Assembly: GCA_022821275.1 (NCBI GenBank)
Contig: JAJEDY010000067.1
Span: 111,958-162,020, forward strand
Length of the DNA stretch: 50,063 bases
Direction: 5' to 3'
Source: Candidatus Latescibacterota bacterium
Lineage (GTDB): Bacteria; Latescibacterota; UBA2968
Shown here: one piece after another, positions 1 to 13,753 of the stretch
Position numbering within the stretch: position 1 is the first letter of the stretch
Layout of the letters: each line of letters begins with the position of its first letter
Notes under the pieces: model-generated
Database searches by the model: none
The model's input: the letters and a program-made list of their open reading frames with translations, nothing else
What the model was told of the DNA's origin: nothing
Translations under genes and position numbers: made by a program

Positions 1-938
1 CCCAGGATAGGCCGCGAAACGAAAAGAGCTGTCATAACACCGGCTGCGGCCGCCAAATTGGTATTGACCAGTACATGACTCATCGCGACCGCGTCAAGCG
101 CGCTTCCCAATGCCAGTTGCGATCCGCCGTTAAAGCCAAACCAGCCGAACCACAAAATAAAGACACCCAGTGTTACTATCAAAATATTAGAGGGCGGCGT
201 GGATTTAACCGTACCATCGCTGCGGAATTTGCCGAATCTCGGTCCAACGACTATCGCGCCAGCAAGTGCTGCCCAACCACCGGTGCTATGCACGATGGTC
301 GATCCAGCAAAATCCTTGAAACCCATCGCACTTAGCCATCCCTCGCCCCATGTCCACGCGCCGACGATGGGATAGATAATCGCCGTCAGCACCAGAATAA
401 AAAGGAAAAAGGACCACATCCTGACCCGTTCGGCCAGAGCCCCAGAGACAATAGAAGCAGTGGTCGCAACAAAGACCATCTGAAAAAACCAGTTGGACAT
501 GGTGGAATAGCCGCTCTCAACCACCGCAGCCTTCGAGACCTCATTTCCCGCTATCAGAGCAATCTCATCACCCGACGGTCCGTATAAGAATTTAAATGAA
601 CCGATTACACTCCCCACATCGACGTACATGAGATTATAGCCGAGAAAATAATAGGCAAGCCCGGCAATGGAATAGAGGCCGATGTTCTTCAGGCAGATCA
701 TGGAGGCGTTCTTGGTGCGCACAGAGCCAGACTCGAGCATGGTAAATCCCGCACACATCCACATCACCAGCACGCCCCAAATGAGGAATGAGAACGTATT
801 GAAGACGAACAGGGTTTCCTCGTCAACCGCTGCATGCGCGGTAGTTGTGGCACTCCCAAGGAACCCGAGCACCGCGAGTGCTTTTCCCATCCTGGTAGTG
901 AACCGATGATGAATAAGGTCTTTAGAAAACGTTCGCAT
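1..938 (-). CDS. amt: Ammonium transporter Amt (partial, C-terminus beyond window)
   Basis: Integral membrane channel for ammonium uptake. The reading frame opens at an ATG at 938 behind a strong Shine-Dalgarno (GGAGGAGATAGAT before ATG) and runs off the left edge, so only about 312 residues are visible. Family landmarks are seen: an N-terminal hydrophobic stretch ending near a possible signal cleavage (TTAHAAVDEE), the segment MCAGFTMLESGSVRTKNA, IVHSTGGWAAL carrying the first His of the twin-His pore pair, and FGWFGFNGGS typical of the Amt/Rh fold. The second pore His lies outside the window. It sits 44 bases downstream of a histidine kinase on the same strand and is probably the last visible gene of that operon. 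No GlnK gene is seen here; one could lie to the left. Identification is confident from several motifs. Confidence 0.93.
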   Translation of the reverse strand, partial: MRTFSKDLIHHRFTTRMGKALAVLGFLGSATTTAHAAVDEETLFVFNTFSFLIWGVLVMWMCAGFTMLESGSVRTKNASMICLKNIGLYSIAGLAYYFLGYNLMYVDVGSVIGSFKFLYGPSGDEIALIAGNEVSKAAVVESGYSTMSNWFFQMVFVATTASIVSGALAERVRMWSFFLFILVLTAIIYPIVGAWTWGEGWLSAMGFKDFAGSTIVHSTGGWAALAGAIVVGPRFGKFRSDGTVKSTPPSNILIVTLGVFILWFGWFGFNGGSQLALGSALDAVAMSHVLVNTNLAAAAGVMTALFVSRPIL

Positions 939-982: not shown

Positions 983-3145
983 CTATCTCACCACCTCTTC
1001 AGTTGTCACCACGGGCGGCACCAAAGGCAATTCTACTATCATCTCGGTGAATTCACCGGGTTCGGATACAACCCGGATATTTCCCCCGTGTTCGCGCACA
1101 ATATCGTTGGAAAGGGCAAGGCCAAGACCCGTGCCCTTGTCTGTCGGTTTGGTGGTAAAGAAAGGATTGAAAATTTTATCGACAACCTCGGGCGGAATCC
1201 CATTTCCATTATCCCGTATGCTCACCTCTATCCGATCATCCATGCGTCTGGTGCTCAGCGACAGAGTCGGAAAAAAGGTCACACCATCATCTGCTTCAAT
1301 AGCACGCCGTTTCTCGTCGGTAGCATAACAGGCATTGCCTACCATGTTGAGAAAGACGCGCCCCAGGTCCTGCGGCACTGCCTCGATTTGCCCTGCATCC
1401 GGGTCGAAATCCGTCTCAATAGTCAAGTTGAAATCCGCGTCAGTCGCCCGTGCGCTGTGGTAGGCAAGGCGGGCGTGTTCATCGAGCAGATTATTAATTT
1501 CAATGGGCTGTCGCTCACCAGAGCCGCGCCCCATCAGGAGCATATCGTGAACAATGCGGTCAGCGCGGGTGCCGTGTTCGAGAATGCGCCCCATGTTGTC
1601 GGTGAGGTCCTGGCATATCTCGTCAACCAATTCGCGCTGCTCCTCGCTCAGTGCTTCGGGACTTTCGTCCAGTACCTCCACCAACTCCTCCATGAGCTCT
1701 TCCGAAGCTTCCGAGAAGTTTTTCACAAAATTCAGCGGATTCTTGATCTCGTGCGCCACACCTGCGGTGAGTTCGCCGAGCGCGGCCAATTTCTCGCGCA
1801 TAACAATCTGGTCCTGCGCCACCTGCAAATCCTCCAGCACTTTTTCGAGCTCTGCATTCTTAGATTGCAACTCTTCGGCCAATTTTTCCACCAGATTCAG
1901 GCGCTGCACCTCCAGAGCGTGTCGGCGAAAGACTTCAAGGGCTGCGGCCATGTCTGCCACCTCGTCGTTTCCACCGATCTCGACCTTGCCCTCCAGATCG
2001 CCATCAGCCATGCGGCGCATCCGCTCGGATAGCCGCTCGAGACGGGGCAATAGCATTCGTCCCACGAATAAATAAGCGATCAACAACGCGCCAGTAATGC
2101 TGATCACATTCAAAACCAACAGAAGACTGCGCCCGGTGCCGATGGCCAGTGTGGAAGCGCGGGTAGCTTCCTTCGCACTTATGCGGGCAGCATTTACCAG
2201 CCCTTCGGCTTCGGCGACCAGATTAAGGGCAAGAGACTGATTGCGTGCGAGCAGGTCCCGCTGGTGCGCGACGTGTTCGAGTTCTCGTGTACGCAGGTCG
2301 AAGCCCCCTTCTTCCCCCAGCCCCAACTGGTACAGACGGGCACATATCGGAGCGATCTGACTGCGCGCACGGGACGTTCCGAGTGCAGACAAACTCCATT
2401 CAATCCTGTCTTTAGCAGCCTCAAATCGCTCCCGCAATGGCTCAATCAAGGGCGCATCTGAAAGATTGAAAGCACTCGATAGAAGCTGGATTGCGGTGGT
2501 GGCGTCTGCTTGTAATGCAGCCAGATGGCGATAGTGGTCGAATTCTTTTCTCGACAAGTGCTGTGCAGGCGACGCGGGTACTTCGCCGAGATTGCGATAC
2601 CCCGTCATAGCGTAGAATAACTGATCGTCAATAAGCGGAACCATGACACCAGCCAGTTCGTTGCGCACTTTGCTCAATTCTGCACGCAGGGCTTCATTCT
2701 GTTTTTGCAGCGCAAAGAGTTCGGCTATGGAACATTCAATTTCTTCGATATTTGAGATCAGTGTAGTACCCTGGTCGCGAATGCGACTAAAGCGTTCTTC
2801 TTCTCCACCTTGCTGCGTCAAAGCCGCCAACTGCACTTCAAAAGCACTTCGCTCTGTGGCGATCTCGTCAATAACCTGATCAAATGTCTCTGGCGTTGCA
2901 GCAGCGATGAGACGCGGTGCTGCGGCTACAATAGCACCGCTTTGTTGAGCGACTCCAAATGCGGCTGCCATTCCGGGCACACTGCCTTCATTCACGCGAC
3001 TTTGCGCGTCACCCACGCTGTTGAAGGAAAACCAGGCAACCAGACTCGCCCCCATAGTGAGGACAACAGCACCGCCAATACCCAAATAGAGTTGCGTCGA
3101 GATTCGGTAGCGGCCTTCAAGCAGGTGTTTTAGTATGTCAATCAT
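983..3145 (-). CDS. TorS-like membrane sensor histidine kinase
   Basis: 720-residue kinase. TM1 about 20-42, a mostly helical extracytoplasmic sensor about 43-338, TM2 about 340-361, HAMP about 362-415, a coiled coil about 415-447, then the HisKA dimerisation helix with phosphoacceptor His465 (AHEIKNPL), and an HATPase domain with N-box Asn604 (NMVGNACYA), G1 at 645-649 (DNGNG) and G2 at 671-675 (GTGLG). The long paired-helix sensor between two membrane segments is the TorS/NarX style. No receiver or Hpt domain is attached, so phosphate probably goes to a separate receiver such as the RsbU-like protein encoded upstream. The ATG overlaps the stop of the binding-protein gene by four bases (ATGA), implying coupled translation. 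Pairing with a periplasmic binding protein resembles TorT-TorS. The ligand is unknown. Confidence 0.9.
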   Translation of the reverse strand: MIDILKHLLEGRYRISTQLYLGIGGAVVLTMGASLVAWFSFNSVGDAQSRVNEGSVPGMAAAFGVAQQSGAIVAAAPRLIAAATPETFDQVIDEIATERSAFEVQLAALTQQGGEEERFSRIRDQGTTLISNIEEIECSIAELFALQKQNEALRAELSKVRNELAGVMVPLIDDQLFYAMTGYRNLGEVPASPAQHLSRKEFDHYRHLAALQADATTAIQLLSSAFNLSDAPLIEPLRERFEAAKDRIEWSLSALGTSRARSQIAPICARLYQLGLGEEGGFDLRTRELEHVAHQRDLLARNQSLALNLVAEAEGLVNAARISAKEATRASTLAIGTGRSLLLVLNVISITGALLIAYLFVGRMLLPRLERLSERMRRMADGDLEGKVEIGGNDEVADMAAALEVFRRHALEVQRLNLVEKLAEELQSKNAELEKVLEDLQVAQDQIVMREKLAALGELTAGVAHEIKNPLNFVKNFSEASEELMEELVEVLDESPEALSEEQRELVDEICQDLTDNMGRILEHGTRADRIVHDMLLMGRGSGERQPIEINNLLDEHARLAYHSARATDADFNLTIETDFDPDAGQIEAVPQDLGRVFLNMVGNACYATDEKRRAIEADDGVTFFPTLSLSTRRMDDRIEVSIRDNGNGIPPEVVDKIFNPFFTTKPTDKGTGLGLALSNDIVREHGGNIRVVSEPGEFTEMIVELPLVPPVVTTEEVVR

Positions 3146-4314
3146 GGCTTTATTGCGTCCCGCAACGTTTGGATCGAGCGATAACTGCCATCGCTACCAA
3201 TCACGGTGAGAAAAACAGCGTCTGAACCCTGATTGTCATTTGCGCCATAGCGAAGTACAAAGCCATCCAGATCAATAGTATCGGCACCGCGCAAACTGTT
3301 GAGAAACCGGGTGCGGTCAACCTCCCTGCCGCAGCGTTCGAGAGCAGCGATAGCCAATCGCCCCGCCAAATAGCCTTCGTAGGAGACAAAACCAGGAGTC
3401 GCTTCGGGGGCGTGAGCCGTTAGGGCACGACGATAGGCAATACCAACGGGGAGGGTATTATCTGTTGGAAAAGGTACGACCTGAGTAACGAAGACCCCAG
3501 CACCACCGCGACCGAGTTCTTCGGCCAAAGCGTTGCTGCCCACAAAGGAGATGGTCATGAATACGGGATCCAGCCCCGTGTGTCGCGCCCAGGCAATCAG
3601 CGTTGCTACCGGCTGGTAGGCCCCTATCAGGATGACTGCATCGGGGTTTGCACTATGCAGGTTGAGCAGACCCGTCTTCACCGCCGTAGTATTGCGCGGG
3701 TACACCCCTATTGCCACAGGTTCCATGCTACGCCGCTCAAGTGCCTGCCGCACGCCGCGATAACCCGCCCGACCAAAAGAGTCATCCTGGTACATAACGG
3801 CAATGCGTTTAATACCCAGGTCTGTAGTCAAACGAGCGACCATAGCCTCGGTTTCCTGGTTATAAGACGCCCGCAGGTTAATCACGTTTTGCCACCTATC
3901 TTCACGCAGGAAGGCCGCACCGGTAAAGGGAGCGATATAAGGGACGCCCGCAGCTGCGGCCACAGGGGTAGCAGAGAGCGATGTAGGCGTACCGACAGCA
4001 CCGATCAGCGCGAAAACCCCTTCCTGTTCAATCAGGCGACGGGTGTTGGCGATGGCATCTTCGGGTTCGTATGCGTCATCCAGAGACAACAATATTAGCA
4101 GCCGGCCATGCACGCCGCCCTGCGCGTTAGCCTCCTGAAAAGCTGCCTCAATACCAATCCGCATGTTCTTGCCCAATTCTCGAGCGGGGCCACTAAAGGC
4201 GGCGGACTGCCCAAAAAGGATGCGCTCGTCAGAGATTCCAGATTCTTCCGCGCGGATTTCCAAAATCAGCAAGACGAGCAGTAAAACCGCACAACTGTAG
4301 CGCGTTCTCCTCAT
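3142..4314 (-). CDS. Periplasmic branched-chain amino acid-type ligand-binding protein (LivK/TorT-like)
   Basis: 390 residues with an N-terminal signal (MRRTRY then a leucine-rich core, cleavage probably near RAEES at 22-25). The start of the mature domain, ILFGQSAAFSGPARELG, and later SVVGSNAL-like and VSYEGYLAGRLAI segments fit type I periplasmic binding folds (LivK/Peripla_BP_6). Such proteins close around a small ligand such as an amino acid or amide and normally feed an ABC importer. No permease or ATPase gene for it is present in this operon; instead it is translationally coupled (ATGA at both ends) to an anti-sigma-type kinase upstream and a sensor kinase downstream. The context suggests a sensing co-receptor rather than transport; that is inference. 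Confidence 0.85.
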   Translation of the reverse strand: MRRTRYSCAVLLLVLLILEIRAEESGISDERILFGQSAAFSGPARELGKNMRIGIEAAFQEANAQGGVHGRLLILLSLDDAYEPEDAIANTRRLIEQEGVFALIGAVGTPTSLSATPVAAAAGVPYIAPFTGAAFLREDRWQNVINLRASYNQETEAMVARLTTDLGIKRIAVMYQDDSFGRAGYRGVRQALERRSMEPVAIGVYPRNTTAVKTGLLNLHSANPDAVILIGAYQPVATLIAWARHTGLDPVFMTISFVGSNALAEELGRGGAGVFVTQVVPFPTDNTLPVGIAYRRALTAHAPEATPGFVSYEGYLAGRLAIAALERCGREVDRTRFLNSLRGADTIDLDGFVLRYGANDNQGSDAVFLTVIGSDGSYRSIQTLRDAIKP

Positions 4315-4733
4315 CCATTCCTCCGCTTAATCAGAGTAAGATGGTTCTTATCCTGCTCGCGGCGATAGTGTATATCGTCCATCATAACGCGCATCAGATG
4401 GATGCCAAGCCCCCCTATCGGCCGATCTTCTATCCCCGCGTCCAGGTCTGGTTCGGGGGCGTCAGTCAGTGGATTGAAGGCATGCCCATCATCTATAATC
4501 TCAACGGTGAAGACATCCTCATCCGAGGTCAGCGTGATCTCAATCTCGTGGTGTGCATCATCGTCGTATCCGTAGTTCACAGTATTTACGATCAATTCTT
4601 CGAGGACGAGATCGACCTGGTACACGAGATCGGGGGGCCAATCCCCCACCTCGCCGAGTTCTGCCACGGCATCGTGCAGCCGCTCCAACTCGTTGAGTTC
4701 CGACGCAATACATAGAGAACGCTTCACCTTCAT
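4311..4733 (-). CDS. RsbW-like anti-sigma factor / serine kinase (HATPase_c_2)
   Basis: 140 residues from ATG 4733, which overlaps the upstream stop as ATGA and has AGAGATAGG in front; a TTG 18 bases upstream is possible but poorer. It is a stand-alone GHKL ATPase of the RsbW/SpoIIAB class: N-box EELIVNTVNYGY (Asn50), G1 IIDDGHAFNP (81-83) and G2 IGGLGIHLMR (107-110). In partner switching such proteins bind either a sigma factor or a STAS antagonist and phosphorylate a serine of the antagonist. Its partners are probably the PP2C phosphatase coupled in front of it and the STAS protein encoded at 6340-6678. No sigma factor gene is in the window, so the regulated output is unknown and need not be a sigma factor. 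Confidence 0.88.
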   Translation of the reverse strand: MKVKRSLCIASELNELERLHDAVAELGEVGDWPPDLVYQVDLVLEELIVNTVNYGYDDDAHHEIEITLTSDEDVFTVEIIDDGHAFNPLTDAPEPDLDAGIEDRPIGGLGIHLMRVMMDDIHYRREQDKNHLTLIKRRNG

Positions 4734-5899
4734 ATTCCTATCTCTCTGCAAAAAAGTGTCATACAGGTCATATCGTCAAACTGGGGCATATCACCCGCAA
4801 ATGCCTGCACAGCTTGAAAAATCGCCTGATTAATTTCGCGGACACCACACGAACAATACTCGGCCAATACCGCACGTAAGCGCTCTATCTCAAACTCCTC
4901 ATTCTGGGCATTCATGGCTTCGGTGACACCATCTGTGTAGAGCACGAGGACATCGCCGGGCGACAGAGTGACTGAGTTTTGTTCGTATTCAACATCTGGC
5001 ATGATACCCAGAGCAATCCCATTGGTCTGGGGGAGCACAGTCGAACTGCCATCCGCGTGGACGAGAATCGGGGGATTGTGCCCTCCGTTGGCGTACGACA
5101 GCACCCCACTCGCCGGATTGTATTCGGCGTAAAATACAGTGACAAACATCGCTGCATCATTGTCTTCCTGCAGGAGACTATTGACCTCGCTCAGTACCTC
5201 AGCCGGATTCGATCTGCCAATTGCAGCTCCTTTCATCAACGTGCGACTGGACATCATGAAAAGAGCAGCCGGTACACCCTTATCGGAAACATCGGCAATT
5301 GCCAGACCGACACAGTCATTTTCCAGATTGATAATATCAAAAAAATCACCGCCCACTTCGCGTGCAGGCTCCATGTTTCCAAACACCTGATATTCAGGTT
5401 TGTTGGGGAAGATCTTCGGCAGGATCGACTGCTGCATCTCATGGGCAACACGGAGTTCGTTTTGCAGTGCCACCAACTTATCCCGCGAAGCCACAGCCTC
5501 GCGCCACATCTTCAGGTGTTCCAAAGTGCGCTCAATCGTGACCCTCAGATCCTGAAAATCAATGGGCTTAGTAATAAAGTCAAACGCCCCTCGATTCATC
5601 GCTGTACGGATATTTTTCATGTCGCCATAAGCCGAGACAATCACAGCGCGGAGGTCGGGATCGACTTGCGACATCTGTTCGAGTAGTGTGAGACCATCCA
5701 TCCGCGGCATATTGATATCCGAAAGCACCATGTCGATATCCGGATCCTCGTTCAGCACCTCAAGTGCCTCAACGCCGTTTTGGGCAAAGGCGAATGCGTA
5801 GTGCCCGGCGCGTACATCGCGCCGCATGCGCTGCCGTATAAGATGTTCGAGATCGGGTTCGTCATCAACCACGAGTATTTTATATTGCGCCTTTTTCAT
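4730..5899 (-). CDS. Response regulator with PP2C/SpoIIE phosphatase output (RsbU-like)
   Basis: 389 residues from ATG 5899, chosen because GAGAGG lies seven bases upstream; an in-frame ATG at 5914 would add five residues. Receiver domain about 6-122 with acidic pocket VDDE and phospho-acceptor Asp61 (VLSDINMP), followed by the Lys of FITKP. A coiled linker (about 125-165) leads to a SpoIIE/PP2C domain with metal-binding motifs VGGDFFDI, VLYTDGVTEA and DDMTCMTL. Such proteins dephosphorylate a STAS anti-anti-sigma factor when their receiver is phosphorylated. It heads a run of genes joined by ATGA overlaps and is the obvious cognate target of the sensor kinase three genes downstream, which has no receiver of its own. 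The cognate pairing is inferred from linkage. Confidence 0.92.
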   Translation of the reverse strand: MKKAQYKILVVDDEPDLEHLIRQRMRRDVRAGHYAFAFAQNGVEALEVLNEDPDIDMVLSDINMPRMDGLTLLEQMSQVDPDLRAVIVSAYGDMKNIRTAMNRGAFDFITKPIDFQDLRVTIERTLEHLKMWREAVASRDKLVALQNELRVAHEMQQSILPKIFPNKPEYQVFGNMEPAREVGGDFFDIINLENDCVGLAIADVSDKGVPAALFMMSSRTLMKGAAIGRSNPAEVLSEVNSLLQEDNDAAMFVTVFYAEYNPASGVLSYANGGHNPPILVHADGSSTVLPQTNGIALGIMPDVEYEQNSVTLSPGDVLVLYTDGVTEAMNAQNEEFEIERLRAVLAEYCSCGVREINQAIFQAVQAFAGDMPQFDDMTCMTLFCREIGI

Positions 5900-5974
5900 A
5901 TACGCGCCTCTCATATTAATGGTGTCTTACTTATACTAATATTAAGCACTCTTTGATCGGAGCACAATCATTAC

Positions 5975-6001
5975 GATAGGTTTCAGAGACCTATCTTTTT
6001 T
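5975..6001. repeat. Hairpin GATAGGT-N7-ACCTATC followed by T-tract
   Basis: GATAGGT (5975-5981) and ACCTATC (5989-5995) form a seven-pair stem, extendable inwards, followed on the plus strand by six to seven T. It looks like an intrinsic terminator for plus-strand (antisense) transcription, although no plus-strand gene precedes it. For the minus-strand operon it would lie in the untranslated region or be an operator about 75 bases before the RsbU-like start. Confidence 0.5.
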
Positions 6002-6060
6002 ACTCACTCGTGTGGAAAGGATTTCGGGGAGAGTTGCTAAAGTGGACAAATGCCAGACCG

Positions 6061-6076
6061 GTCATTTTGTAATGAC
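6061..6076. repeat. Inverted repeat GTCATT-N4-AATGAC
   Basis: Perfect six-base arms around TTGT, 16 bases in total, lying in the spacer upstream of the RsbU-like operon. The compact perfect dyad is the size of a dimeric repressor site, but no regulator can be named from it. Confidence 0.35.
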
Positions 6077-6339
6077 AAACCGCGCGACACGAGGTAGAAG
6101 GTTGGCTATTATTCGGGAGGTTTTGATAGCGGATATACAGAGCAGGAGAAATACCCTGGAAAGTGATCTATGGACCAGATACACAGGAAAATCGGATCGG
6201 CGTGTGAATTCGATAACGCCTGCAACCCAACTGTGGAAAGCTCACAGATTAAGCCTGACGAGCCTAAATCGGTCTGTGCAACAGGTTTGAGGGCCCTCAT
6301 CTATGACTTGAGAGCACACGCGACAAAGCGAAAGACAGA

Positions 6340-6678
6340 TTATTCGCCCAGTGCGGCGCAAGCCTCTGCCTGTGAGTCGTAGATCGAAATGATCTTGTCA
6401 AATCCGCTGATTTTGAAGACCTCTCCGATGGGACCAGAAAGCGAGCAAAGCGCGAATTCCGCATTGCGATTCCGGAGTGACTTGGCAACCAGCAAAATGA
6501 CCCGCAGGCCCGAGCTACTAATGTAAGAAAGCCCCCCAAAATCTACGACCACACGGGTATCGTCGTCACTGATTGCAGAGCTTAATACATTTTCGAACTC
6601 GCGGGCATTGGCACTATCAACTCGGCCATTCACATTCGCGATTAAAATACCATTTTCTTTTTGGGTTTTAATCTCCAT
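6340..6678 (-). CDS. STAS-domain anti-sigma factor antagonist
   Basis: 112 residues forming a single STAS domain: MEIKTQKENGILIANVNGRV, then VVVDFGGLSYISSSGLRVIL. Aligning with SpoIIAA (DSSGL, phosphoserine 58), Ser55 in ISSSGL is the expected phosphorylation site, although the usual preceding Asp is replaced by Ser54. It is the likely substrate of the RsbW-like kinase and the PP2C phosphatase encoded downstream on the same strand after a 440-base spacer. The start ATG 6678 is preceded by AAAGG. A sigma-70-type promoter and a palindrome lie upstream (6731-6767). Confidence 0.9.
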   Translation of the reverse strand: MEIKTQKENGILIANVNGRVDSANAREFENVLSSAISDDDTRVVVDFGGLSYISSSGLRVILLVAKSLRNRNAEFALCSLSGPIGEVFKISGFDKIISIYDSQAEACAALGE

Positions 6679-11446: not shown

Positions 11447-12097
11447 TCACGGCATCATCTGCACGGCGAGGGCGAGTGACAGCTCAATATCTGTAATCGC
11501 CTGCGACATAGCCTGACCGATCAAATCCAGCTTTCGCACCTGATCAATCCGATCGGCAACACGCGCCAGTTCGCGTGCGGATAGAATCTCCTTAAATATA
11601 TCACATGCATGCGCCAGACCGATAATCACGACATCGCGCGGACTGGGGATCTGGTCGCTAAACAGCACCTCCATAATCCTCAGCTTGACCTCGCGCTCGG
11701 CCGTATTGTCAACAATGGGATAGCGCCGCGCCTGGAATACCCACATGAACCGGTCCTCTTCGCGATTGAGAATACCCTGTTCTACGAGCCGATTGAGAGC
11801 CTCTTCCCGAATCGTATCTGCGCGAAGCGCGGTGCGCTCCACCCAAAAGCGCGCATCCTTAGTATCGTCCGCCTCTGCAATATCCGCCAGCGTCGGATCG
11901 AGCAAGCTATCCCCAACTGGCGTCGAATCGACCAGAATCAAATTTTTGAGATCCGTATCAATCCGATTCTCCAGCGCCAAATCCATCAACACACCACCGG
12001 CCAGCGCATACCGCATCAGCCGGTCTGGCACGCGAGCAAACCGCCCATTCTCATCGTCGAGTATGAGAAGCATGAGTTCTTCGGCAAATCTAAGCAT
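11447..12097 (-). CDS. GPP34 (GOLPH3-like) family protein
   Basis: 216 residues from ATG 12097. That start overlaps the stop of the ThuA-like gene as TAATG and has TGGAGGG upstream; a longer frame from 12118 is less likely. The opening LRFAEELMLLILDDENGRF is the typical start of the GPP34 fold, followed by helical segments such as RLMRYALAGGVLMDLAL and EEALNRLVEQGIL. In eukaryotes GOLPH3 binds phosphatidylinositol-4-phosphate; bacterial members are of uncertain function. Translational coupling with the ThuA-like gene suggests co-expression. Confidence 0.85.
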   Translation of the reverse strand: MLRFAEELMLLILDDENGRFARVPDRLMRYALAGGVLMDLALENRIDTDLKNLILVDSTPVGDSLLDPTLADIAEADDTKDARFWVERTALRADTIREEALNRLVEQGILNREEDRFMWVFQARRYPIVDNTAEREVKLRIMEVLFSDQIPSPRDVVIIGLAHACDIFKEILSARELARVADRIDQVRKLDLIGQAMSQAITDIELSLALAVQMMP

Positions 12098-12744
12098 TAC
12101 GAGTTCCCTCCAGCCCATCTCACGCCCTGCGTCACCAGTTGCTGCATCCCCGCCCGTTCAAATGTACCCGGTCCGTGTCCCAGAGTCGTGTAAAATACTC
12201 GTCCTTCGCCATAACCCTTCACCCAGGCCATGGGATGCTGCTTATCGCTCCAATCCGCAGTTGCCAAAATGTGAACAGCGGGATCCCATGCCGACATATA
12301 AATCTCGTCTTCCACTTCAAAATCATCCACACCCTGTGTGATCGGGTGCGCGTCATCCGCAATATTCACGATGAACGTCAATCCCGGCGGATGCCAGTTT
12401 GCGTGTCCGCCAATCAAATCCACCGCTCTCCCACCAATCCACCAGGCCGTACCGTGAATCCCCACCAGACCCTTGCCACCTGCGACAAAATCGAATAGTC
12501 CCTCTTCTTGATCAGGCGTCAAATCCGGCAAGCGGTTCACCGTCCCATCCGCATCCCGCTCTGTACGCGTGAATCCCGTACCGTGTACCAGCACATCAAA
12601 ATCGTTCAAAGCATCTGAAGTCAGCACATCCTTATCGTCTTCAAGCGCGACAGACAAATCGTCCTGAGCACCCAAAAACCCATTGATAACCTCGGCACTT
12701 GCATCAAACCGATGGTTCGGACCCGACAAAACCAGCACTTTCAT
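12097..12744 (-). CDS. ThuA-like domain protein
   Basis: 215 residues, ATG behind AAGGAGGATGAG. The ThuA (trehalose-utilisation, type-1 glutamine-amidotransferase-like fold) pattern is seen: MKVLVLSGPNHRFDASAEV, DFVAGGKGLVGIHGTAWW, GHANWHPPG, and the terminal GRVFYTTLGHGPGTFERAG. Such proteins are often found with sugar catabolism genes, but their reaction is unknown. The gene is the first of a two-gene unit with the GPP34 gene, under its own promoter at 12787-12815. Confidence 0.87.
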   Translation of the reverse strand: MKVLVLSGPNHRFDASAEVINGFLGAQDDLSVALEDDKDVLTSDALNDFDVLVHGTGFTRTERDADGTVNRLPDLTPDQEEGLFDFVAGGKGLVGIHGTAWWIGGRAVDLIGGHANWHPPGLTFIVNIADDAHPITQGVDDFEVEDEIYMSAWDPAVHILATADWSDKQHPMAWVKGYGEGRVFYTTLGHGPGTFERAGMQQLVTQGVRWAGGNS

Positions 12745-12782
12745 CTCATCCTCCTTTGTAATTATTCATACTTCAAAGCGCA

Positions 12783-12801
12783 GGCGTATATAATACACGC
12801 C
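12783..12801. promoter_or_regulatory. Operator candidate overlapping the ThuA-GPP34 -10 box
   Basis: GGCGTATATAATACACGCC pairs with itself except at one position. Its core GCGTATA-N3-TACACGC matches the STAS-promoter palindrome (GCGTGTA-N5-TACACGC), with the spacing two bases shorter. Confidence 0.4.
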
Positions 12802-12815
12802 CGCAACCCGGTCAA
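12787..12815 (-). promoter_or_regulatory. Promoter of the ThuA-GPP34 operon
   Basis: Reading leftwards: TTGACC (12815-12810), 17 bases, TATATA (12792-12787). The leader would be about 36 bases. The -10 region is inside an imperfect dyad, GGCGTATATAATACACGCC, closely like the one at the STAS promoter. Confidence 0.6.
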
Positions 12816-12880
12816 GTGCTTTTCAAAATGAGCGATCTGCTCGCAGTTCTACTTTGGCCTGTTCCCATGACATCACTTCT

Positions 12881-13753
12881 TCACCTGCGTCGCGAAGATA
12901 AAGAACGTTTGAAGAGCGCGATATCCTTATCTATATCCTCCATATCTTCAATATCCTCTCCTCGGGCGGCTTTTAGATGGAGATTCAGGGCATATTTGCA
13001 ACAATGTGCGACATAGGCGATAAACTCCGTCAAATCTTCGGTCTTATCGGCCTGCTCCAGCATCCCAATGTATTGACCTCTCTCCTCAATAGGAACTATG
13101 GCCACCGTGTACCCGTGCTTGATCAAAATCATATTCATTAACAGTCGTGCCATGCGGCCATTACCATCATCAAAAGGATGAATGCGGATAAAACGGTAGT
13201 GAAACGTAGCGGCTATAACAATCGGATGTTCGCCCTCGTCTTCTTGTCTTCTATACCAATCTATGAGATCGCCCATCGCAGATTTCACCTGATCTGGCGG
13301 CGTAAAATAATAAATCTCTCCTGTAGAAGTCCGCACATTATTTGGCTGTGTCTTATACTCTCCGATGGCAATACGTCGTTTCACCGGCTGTCCATCGGGC
13401 GTTATCACGTCGTTTTCATAAGGCTCCTTCAGCAACACTTTATGGAGATTTCGGATAAAGACCTCGTTGAGTAATTCATCTCTTTTTACTGCATCCTCCA
13501 TCGCCTTTACCGCTTCATCATGTCCCTCAATGTCCAGATGATCGCGCATTGGTTTCCCGCGAGCAGTAAGCCCATGAAGAATCAGACTTCTCGTTTCTCC
13601 GAGCGTCAGGCTATTGCCTTCTACAGCATTGGAGTGATAGTTCGACTCAATTCGGAGCTTTTGTTCTATCTGGCCCACGATCTCAGAAGGCAATGGGCGC
13701 AATGCGTCCAGTTCCTCTTTAAGCCGATCAATTTCTTCAATGACATTGCTCAT
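12881..13753 (-). CDS. Fic-domain protein (probable AMP transferase) with built-in inhibitory helix
   Basis: 290 residues. The catalytic Fic motif is complete, HPFDDGNGRMAR at 192-203 (His192 base, Asn198, Arg200, Arg203). An N-terminal inhibitory motif is visible, SNAVEGN at 41-47 with Glu45, making it a class II (intramolecularly inhibited) Fic protein. The flap region is about 140-152 (TSTGEIYYFTPP). These enzymes transfer AMP or related groups to target hydroxyls and can act as toxins, but with a built-in inhibitor a separate antitoxin is not needed and none is seen. The start ATG 13753 has GAGGATATACC. The gene lies alone, flanked upstream by a cluster of CTCACACAAAG repeats. Target unknown. 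Confidence 0.92.
   Translation of the reverse strand: MSNVIEEIDRLKEELDALRPLPSEIVGQIEQKLRIESNYHSNAVEGNSLTLGETRSLILHGLTARGKPMRDHLDIEGHDEAVKAMEDAVKRDELLNEVFIRNLHKVLLKEPYENDVITPDGQPVKRRIAIGEYKTQPNNVRTSTGEIYYFTPPDQVKSAMGDLIDWYRRQEDEGEHPIVIAATFHYRFIRIHPFDDGNGRMARLLMNMILIKHGYTVAIVPIEERGQYIGMLEQADKTEDLTEFIAYVAHCCKYALNLHLKAARGEDIEDMEDIDKDIALFKRSLSSRRR

Follow-up and report, generated by a model that had tools for sequence, protein, structure and literature searches.

How do uncultured Latescibacterota and Chloroflexota sense nutrients outside the cell, and how might they couple what they sense to the uptake of ammonium? The question is raised by a run of genes in a 50,063-nucleotide stretch of DNA (hereafter the window) from a Candidatus Latescibacterota bacterium (GTDB lineage Bacteria; Latescibacterota; UBA2968; NCBI GenBank assembly GCA_022821275.1, contig JAJEDY010000067.1, positions 111,958 to 162,020 of the forward strand), a kind of bacterium for which sponges are a reported source (PMC12993501). 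On its minus strand lie, in this order, genes for a STAS-domain protein, an RsbU-like receiver-phosphatase, an RsbW-like kinase, a type I periplasmic binding protein and a TorS-like histidine kinase, followed by the ammonium transporter gene amt. Our favoured reading, which we hold to be reasonably probable, is that the first five genes (the module) encode a binding-protein-gated two-component partner switch controlling nitrogen acquisition. Such a switch would bring two signalling families, binding-protein kinases and partner switches, into a single path, and suggests a control of nitrogen acquisition that has yet to be described, with the module as a cross-phylum candidate for the coupling of outside nutrients to ammonium uptake.

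The path that we infer begins in the periplasm, where the type I binding protein would take an extracellular ligand and dock on the membrane kinase at its helical, TorS-type sensor. The kinase would autophosphorylate at His465 and then phosphorylate Asp61 of the receiver-phosphatase, altering in one direction or the other its activity on the STAS protein (the site is probably Ser55), while the RsbW-like kinase would oppose it by phosphorylating STAS. The phosphorylation state of STAS would then set which partner STAS or RsbW holds. The output would most likely be the expression or activity of the ammonium transporter (Amt), joined in one genus of Latescibacterota and in many Chloroflexota by that of a cassette of ATP-grasp, Alpha-E and transglutaminase-like genes.

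The locus and its order across phyla

An earlier note on this DNA, made from the letters alone, had described this gene set with three ATGA overlaps, a 44-base gap to amt, an upstream STAS gene and a phospho-acceptor at Asp61, all of which were confirmed at the level of single bases. Profile searches with Pfam and NCBIfam, the source of all bit scores for window proteins, identify an RsbV/SpoIIAA-like STAS protein of 112 amino acids (6340..6678; PF01740, 75 bits; TIGR00377, 83.6 bits, over cut-off), an RsbU-like protein of 389 amino acids combining receiver and PP2C phosphatase (4730..5899; REC PF00072, 92 bits; SpoIIE PF07228, 186 bits), an RsbW-like serine kinase of 140 amino acids (4311..4733; PF13581, 100 bits) and a periplasmic binding protein of 390 amino acids with a hydrophobic, signal-peptide-like N-terminus (3142..4314; Peripla_BP_6, 208 bits). 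In the histidine kinase (983..3145; 720 amino acids), Pfam and hydrophobic windows delimit a transmembrane segment, a putatively TorS-type, all-helical periplasmic sensor, a second transmembrane segment, HAMP, HisKA (with His465) and HATPase_c. The last four module genes are joined by the overlaps at 4733-4730, 4314-4311 and 3145-3142, and 44 bases separate the kinase stop from the start of amt at 938. The window holds the first 312 codons of amt (3..938, minus strand; PF00909, 217 bits), the rest lying beyond its edge; the whole gene is visible in the locus L006, at 11514-12917 on the minus strand. The STAS gene stands 440 bases upstream of RsbU, hence outside the overlapping run, across a spacer (5900..6339) with strongly conserved blocks in an alignment of the window with five members of its genus. 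Given this conservation, the spacer may hold a promoter or regulatory element for the four genes downstream, and the genes from RsbU to the kinase may have a promoter of their own. The longest RsbU reading frame starts at 5914, with an ATG that is absent in five aligned relatives; these share instead the one at 5899, and with this start the receiver's phospho-acceptor is Asp61.

Whether these genes belong together was examined in relatives. When 84,980 species, each represented by one genome, were scanned for proteins closely related to the binding protein, 25 loci emerged. Whole-genome searches with a kinase alignment matched 24 of 64 genomes in the window's own phylum, that genome included (11 of 11 in its genus, 4 of 4 in genus g7, 8 of 11 in genus g11, and one kinase core only), 29 of 400 sampled Chloroflexota (the phylum of L028; search centre included, 28 near full length) and two of 396 sampled Actinomycetota (the phylum of L016; one of the two being the centre itself). 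The flanking DNA was retrieved for many, though not all, of the matches, among them 20 of 28 further Chloroflexota genomes and seven of eight g11 genomes. The set considered here comprises 59 loci (19 from Latescibacterota, 23 from Chloroflexota, 15 from Actinomycetota and two from alphaproteobacteria), omitting L065 and L068 as repeats of L014 and L010; phylum was assigned by record label or search centre, except for L012 and L027, which were placed by likeness. Flank contents rest on tblastn unless Pfam is named, and some flanks are short.

The order STAS, RsbU, RsbW, binding protein, kinase, all on one strand, is intact in 48 of the 59 loci: 11 of 19 in Latescibacterota, 22 of 23 in Chloroflexota and all 15 in Actinomycetota. 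Elsewhere, seven Latescibacterota of genus g11 keep the genes from RsbU to kinase together and carry STAS beyond the kinase, convergent to it and beside amt; contig ends truncate L009 and L087, and in the two alphaproteobacteria the switch is missing. Leaving the alphaproteobacteria aside, all 57 loci have the kinase gene following that of the binding protein. Because gene order is kept across three phyla, the five genes are best read, on this comparative evidence, as one real signalling unit, as the earlier note had proposed. Two of the three conditions named there as able to overturn the proposal, a gene order lost in relatives and a cognate permease pair in the locus (see below), were looked for, and neither overturned it. 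Some points count against so simple a view: in genus g7 the STAS gene lies 0.7-2.1 kb from RsbU; loci of one genus are not independent of each other; and the distance correlations among the five proteins (0.83-0.93, leaving aside the cut or broken loci L009, L012, L059 and L087 and the two alphaproteobacteria) lack an unlinked control gene, for which reason they were dropped as proof of co-evolution.

Close relatives of the window's binding protein (90-94% identical) come from six metagenome-assembled genomes (MAGs), of which five bear the label Candidatus Latescibacterota or Latescibacteria and the sixth that of Gemmatimonadota. In the locus L012, which carries the label Gemmatimonadota, the five module proteins share 91-96% identity with those of the window, and the locus is probably from a mislabelled latescibacterotal MAG.

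The kinase sensor and the binding protein

The N-terminal part of the kinase, residues 1-440, was modelled with AlphaFold (mean predicted local distance difference test score, pLDDT, 75; residues ~60-320 mostly above 80). The model found its best Foldseek matches, at ranks 1-6, in the TorS chains of TorS-TorT crystals, with a TMt of 0.79-0.83 for the four best. VIA-align superposed the model on TorS from such a crystal with a Z of 20.1 and a root-mean-square deviation of 2.9 over 256 residues, at ~14% identity; further rows were E. coli TorS at 16.0 and McpZ, McpS and PilJ at 14.6-15.7, the last value being the best outside TorS. By the fold of its model, then, the sensor appears to be of TorS type, which bears out the earlier description of the kinase as TorS-like. 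The sequence profile is fainter: TorS_sensor_domain (PF21689) matches the window kinase weakly (30.3 bits, the cut-off being 27), and falls under the cut-off in three of four relatives' module kinases scanned. Pfam found no receiver or HPt domain in the kinase, only HAMP, HisKA and HATPase_c after the sensor, and against the hybrid-kinase model TIGR02956 it scored 153.8 bits, with a cut-off of 676.5.

The binding protein (model pLDDT 83; best PDB match 4kv7, from Rhodopirellula, at 40% identity) had been called an orphan, and it remained one when a Liv-type permease was sought in the locus. Among 12 genomes searched for BPD_transp_2 (PF02653), the window's own (G000) had no match on the module contig and G023 had no match anywhere; the nearest to any module lay ~23 kb away, in G064. 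Since no such permease stands near the module in these genomes, the most likely role of the binding protein is that of a sensor subunit. The reading in which it serves an ABC importer encoded elsewhere, its place beside the kinase being accidental, can draw on a family of Liv-type substrate-binding proteins and on four BPD_transp_2 matches in G000, all of them off the module contig; set against the unbroken succession of binding protein and kinase in the 57 loci, and the lack of a single BPD_transp_2 match in G023, it seems to us very improbable indeed.

The wider family offers a further view of how a sensor subunit might act. In an alphaproteobacterium (L031, 7899-11409), a binding protein 53% identical to the window's is followed by a chemoreceptor (MCP) whose N-terminal part matches kinase residues 12-416 at 26%, and in a second (L032, 7956-11867) a 52% relative lies beside a different MCP. 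In genome G065 (L098, 54-2944), a 62% relative, its start cut by the contig end, precedes a protein of 718 amino acids with two tandem stretches like TorS-type sensors (28%) and no recognised output domain. Because the family swaps its output (kinase, MCP, tandem sensor) yet stays beside such sensors, its neighbourhoods speak for a binding protein that would contact the sensor directly. The tandem-sensor protein is, in passing, reminiscent of GlnX of Corynebacterium.

As to what is bound, the earlier suggestion of an amino-acid-like ligand found no support. Sequence alignment maps Ser79, Thr102, Tyr202 and Glu226 of LivK, which we take to be anchors of its leucine pocket, to Thr109, Gly132, Ala232 (Tyr233 with a one-residue shift) and Ser256 of the window's protein, so that three of the four anchors look replaced.

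Related proteins occur in other settings. In genus g7 (L055, 10661-12268), a gene lying between those for the kinase and ATP-grasp encodes another Peripla_BP_6 protein, whose N-terminal part is long, and open reading frames in L054 and L057 resemble it, by appearance only. Paralogous kinases in L090-L095 are 43-57% identical in the catalytic half, those of L091-L095 matching only from about residue 334-348 on; no RsbU-like neighbour was detectable in their fetched flanks.

The partner switch and its probable output

The switch proteins retain the residues on which such a relay would depend. Ser54 and Ser55 of the STAS phospho-site motif YISSSG are invariant in 23 sequences, the receiver aspartate and the metal-binding Asp residues of the PP2C domain are conserved in all 23 RsbU-like sequences, the N and G boxes of the RsbW-like GHKL kinase in all 24, and the H box of the histidine kinase is invariant across the 23-24 compared. 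The features of the partner-switch class (phospho-Ser STAS, N/G-box RsbW-like kinase, SpoIIE-type PP2C) are all present, and the kinase gene lies near a REC-PP2C gene with intact Asp, as in the RsfSR/RsbKY class. The window's genome encodes a second RsbW-like kinase domain (C32:49254-49625, 95.5 bits), so other partner switches may be present there. Upstream of the module in the chloroflexotal locus L080, Pfam identified a receiver-STAS fusion with extra STAS genes (11937-12851, minus strand); three further loci from Chloroflexota, L082, L084 and L086, show a similar pattern by tblastn.

What might such a switch hold or release? The earlier note had proposed an anti-sigma switch; in its classical form RsbW would hold a SigB/SigF-type sigma factor encoded elsewhere, STAS would free it, and amt would lie under a promoter of that sigma factor. 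STAS, RsbW and RsbU are indeed the classical trio, and Latescibacterota carry many sigma genes (24 Sigma70_r2 matches in G000), so a distant target is possible. The genomic evidence points the other way: the complete list for G000 has no Sigma70_r2 on the module contig, and among the matches listed for 19 other genomes the nearest stand ~11 kb from STAS in G023 and, in G064, at 38 kb from the kinase, with greater distances elsewhere. Furthermore, G582, G498, G065 and G066 have two Sigma70_r2 matches each, and in G065 and G066 these are one large sigma factor and a smaller one of extracytoplasmic function (ECF) type (regions 2 and 4 only), leaving no SigB/SigF-like candidate unless assembly missed it. 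The RsbW-like protein also falls far under the cut-offs of curated RsbW/SpoIIAB models (best 39.5 of 145 bits), itself a weak argument. The anti-sigma proposal is thus unsupported and its case weak, and we consider it unlikely.

The link to ammonium uptake fared better, and is supported in two phyla by a linkage stronger than the earlier note could know. Amt was found in the fetched flanks of all 19 latescibacterotal loci and of 11 of 23 from Chloroflexota (0 of 15 in Actinomycetota, 0 of 2 in alphaproteobacteria), the neighbouring proteins sharing 71-94% identity with the window's Amt along most of their length. It recurs in four arrangements: its gene may follow that of the kinase, follow it with an ATP-grasp gene in between, form with STAS a pair that is convergent with the module or, in L075, lie upstream of STAS. 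Among NCBIfam models the window's part of Amt matches TIGR03644, a marine subtype, best (354.5 bits against a whole-protein cut-off of 514), and Amt of L070 reaches 510.9 bits, slightly under that cut-off.

The amt-STAS pair, co-directional and with 62-67 bases between match ends in seven Latescibacterota, invites the thought that STAS might act directly on Amt as a GlnK-like post-translational gate, the more so as SulP transporters include STAS domains (PMC8256260). In most loci, however, STAS stays with RsbU and away from amt, and all seven genomes with the pair have P-II, so that we regard a direct gate as distinctly improbable.

A second candidate output accompanies Amt in part of the set. 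In 14 loci, four from the latescibacterotal genus g7 and ten from Chloroflexota, the order extends to nine genes: STAS, RsbU, RsbW, binding protein, kinase, ATP-grasp, Amt, Alpha-E and transglutaminase. Two further chloroflexotal loci have this order minus Amt, so that the ATP-grasp, Alpha-E and transglutaminase genes occur together in 16 relatives' loci. Cassette domains were assigned by Pfam in L033 and L070 and by tblastn only in the others, where additional genes may intervene. The window's locus is without the cassette, and its genome carries ATP-grasp and Alpha-E genes on another contig. Genes of these three kinds accompany Anbu in the Anbu operon (PMC6376114, PMC5666114); Anbu is reported to be up-regulated in nitrogen-limited Pseudomonas putida (PMC6376114, PMC5666114), and the role of the three accompanying genes is described as unconfirmed (PMC6376114). 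Anbu itself was not recognised in the stretches covered, where few downstream genes were scanned and no proteasome-family search was made. For the ATP-grasp, Alpha-E and transglutaminase genes, the module is a candidate regulator.

Several observations strain a reading centred on nitrogen. Amt matches in L059 in its last part only (residues 380-465), and amt of L012 matches in two pieces; all 15 actinomycetotal loci and 12 of the 23 from Chloroflexota are without Amt in their flanks (some of the latter flanks being short); and upstream of STAS, 14 of 15 actinomycetotal loci carry malate synthase G and 12 of 15 also an oxidase of DAO type, its subfamily unsettled. Given these different neighbours and the Amt-less Chloroflexota, the output may not be nitrogen everywhere. 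They also favour a rival in which the module senses nutrients in general and acts on a remote output, Amt, malate synthase and other neighbours varying by lineage with local operon history; in ten of the 23 chloroflexotal loci, moreover, Amt and the cassette are both missing. Against it stand the recurrence of Amt in four arrangements, the amt-STAS pair included, and a simple expectation: with three amt genes (an assumed number) in 3.4 Mb, one would fall within 8 kb of a given locus in ~1.4% of cases. We see the general sensor as a possibility of some substance that leans towards the unlikely, and retain the nitrogen-linked switch as the preferred reading. Two neighbours were set aside: a malate synthase in the chloroflexotal locus L028, hinted at by loose clustering and not reproduced by tblastn, and an upstream Na:alanine symporter, present in only two of 19 latescibacterotal loci (some flanks being short).

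If nitrogen is the output, the switch might stand in for P-II. Canonical P-II is absent from all 14 genomes with the complete nine-gene cluster (ten without a match, four with matches of only 38-43 bits), among them the g7 genomes G020-G023 (97-98% complete; no match), two other tested members of whose family, G019 and G024, have one each; the four cluster-bearing Latescibacterota are of one genus, and P-II is present in 20 of 21 other Latescibacterota tested. Among Chloroflexota, canonical P-II is also absent from 18 of 20 sampled genomes that lack the module (one of the 18 shows a 32-bit match) and from 14 of 18 that carry it and for which a complete cluster is not established. Because absence is so common in Chloroflexota lacking the module or the complete cluster, it is only a lead; as proof of replacement it was rejected, being confounded by phylum. 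It would be a doubtful step to go further, and to propose a P-II-independent nitrogen circuit, perhaps moved between phyla as a unit, in which a kinase-driven STAS/RsbW switch targets Amt and an amide-forming ATP-grasp cassette, and not a sigma factor, and substitutes where P-II is missing.

Comparison with known systems

TorS is a hybrid kinase that acts on TorR, and its partner TorT is presumably a type I binding protein, like that of the module. TorT-TorS (3o1h, 3o1i, 3o1j; trimethylamine N-oxide) resembles the module in having a kinase with the same sensor fold, by model, and differs from it in that the module's kinase lacks a receiver or HPt domain by Pfam and has a phosphatase as its likely target.

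For that second half the nearest tested precedents are RsfSR (RsfS-RsfR with RsfB, Mycobacterium smegmatis) and RsbK-RsbY (Bacillus cereus), in which a STAS anti-sigma antagonist is dephosphorylated by a receiver-PP2C phosphatase, itself phosphorylated by a histidine kinase (PMC10950880). The likeness lies in the route from histidine kinase to REC-PP2C to STAS; the difference is that theirs are CHASE3 kinases, with no binding protein mentioned and with SigF or SigB as output (PMC10950880). Phosphorylation of the receiver lowers activity in one of the two and raises it in the other (PMC10950880), so the sign of the module's response is not predictable from them.

Other systems share single features. 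In GlnH-GlnX-PknG-OdhI of Corynebacterium glutamicum, a binding protein and a helical-bundle membrane protein steer Ser/Thr phosphorylation and ammonium assimilation, with a binding protein of another family (SBP_bac_3) and no histidine kinase, PP2C, RsbW or STAS (PMC9769921). In SypE-SypA of Vibrio fischeri an RsbW-like kinase phosphorylates a STAS protein whose target is not known as a sigma factor, with kinase, receiver and phosphatase in one protein and with another input and gene context (PMC8256260, PMC12826045). The Anbu operon shares with the module's relatives its ATP-grasp, Alpha-E and transglutaminase-like genes (PMC6376114, PMC5666114), and differs in that, in 14 module loci, Amt lies between ATP-grasp and Alpha-E and a signalling module precedes them. 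A literature search, with most subscription papers outside its reach, found among its best matches no description of RsfSR-like and binding-protein halves joined, with Amt and an ATP-grasp cassette. By analogy, the module would work like RsfSR joined to TorT-TorS, without being classed as a member of either.

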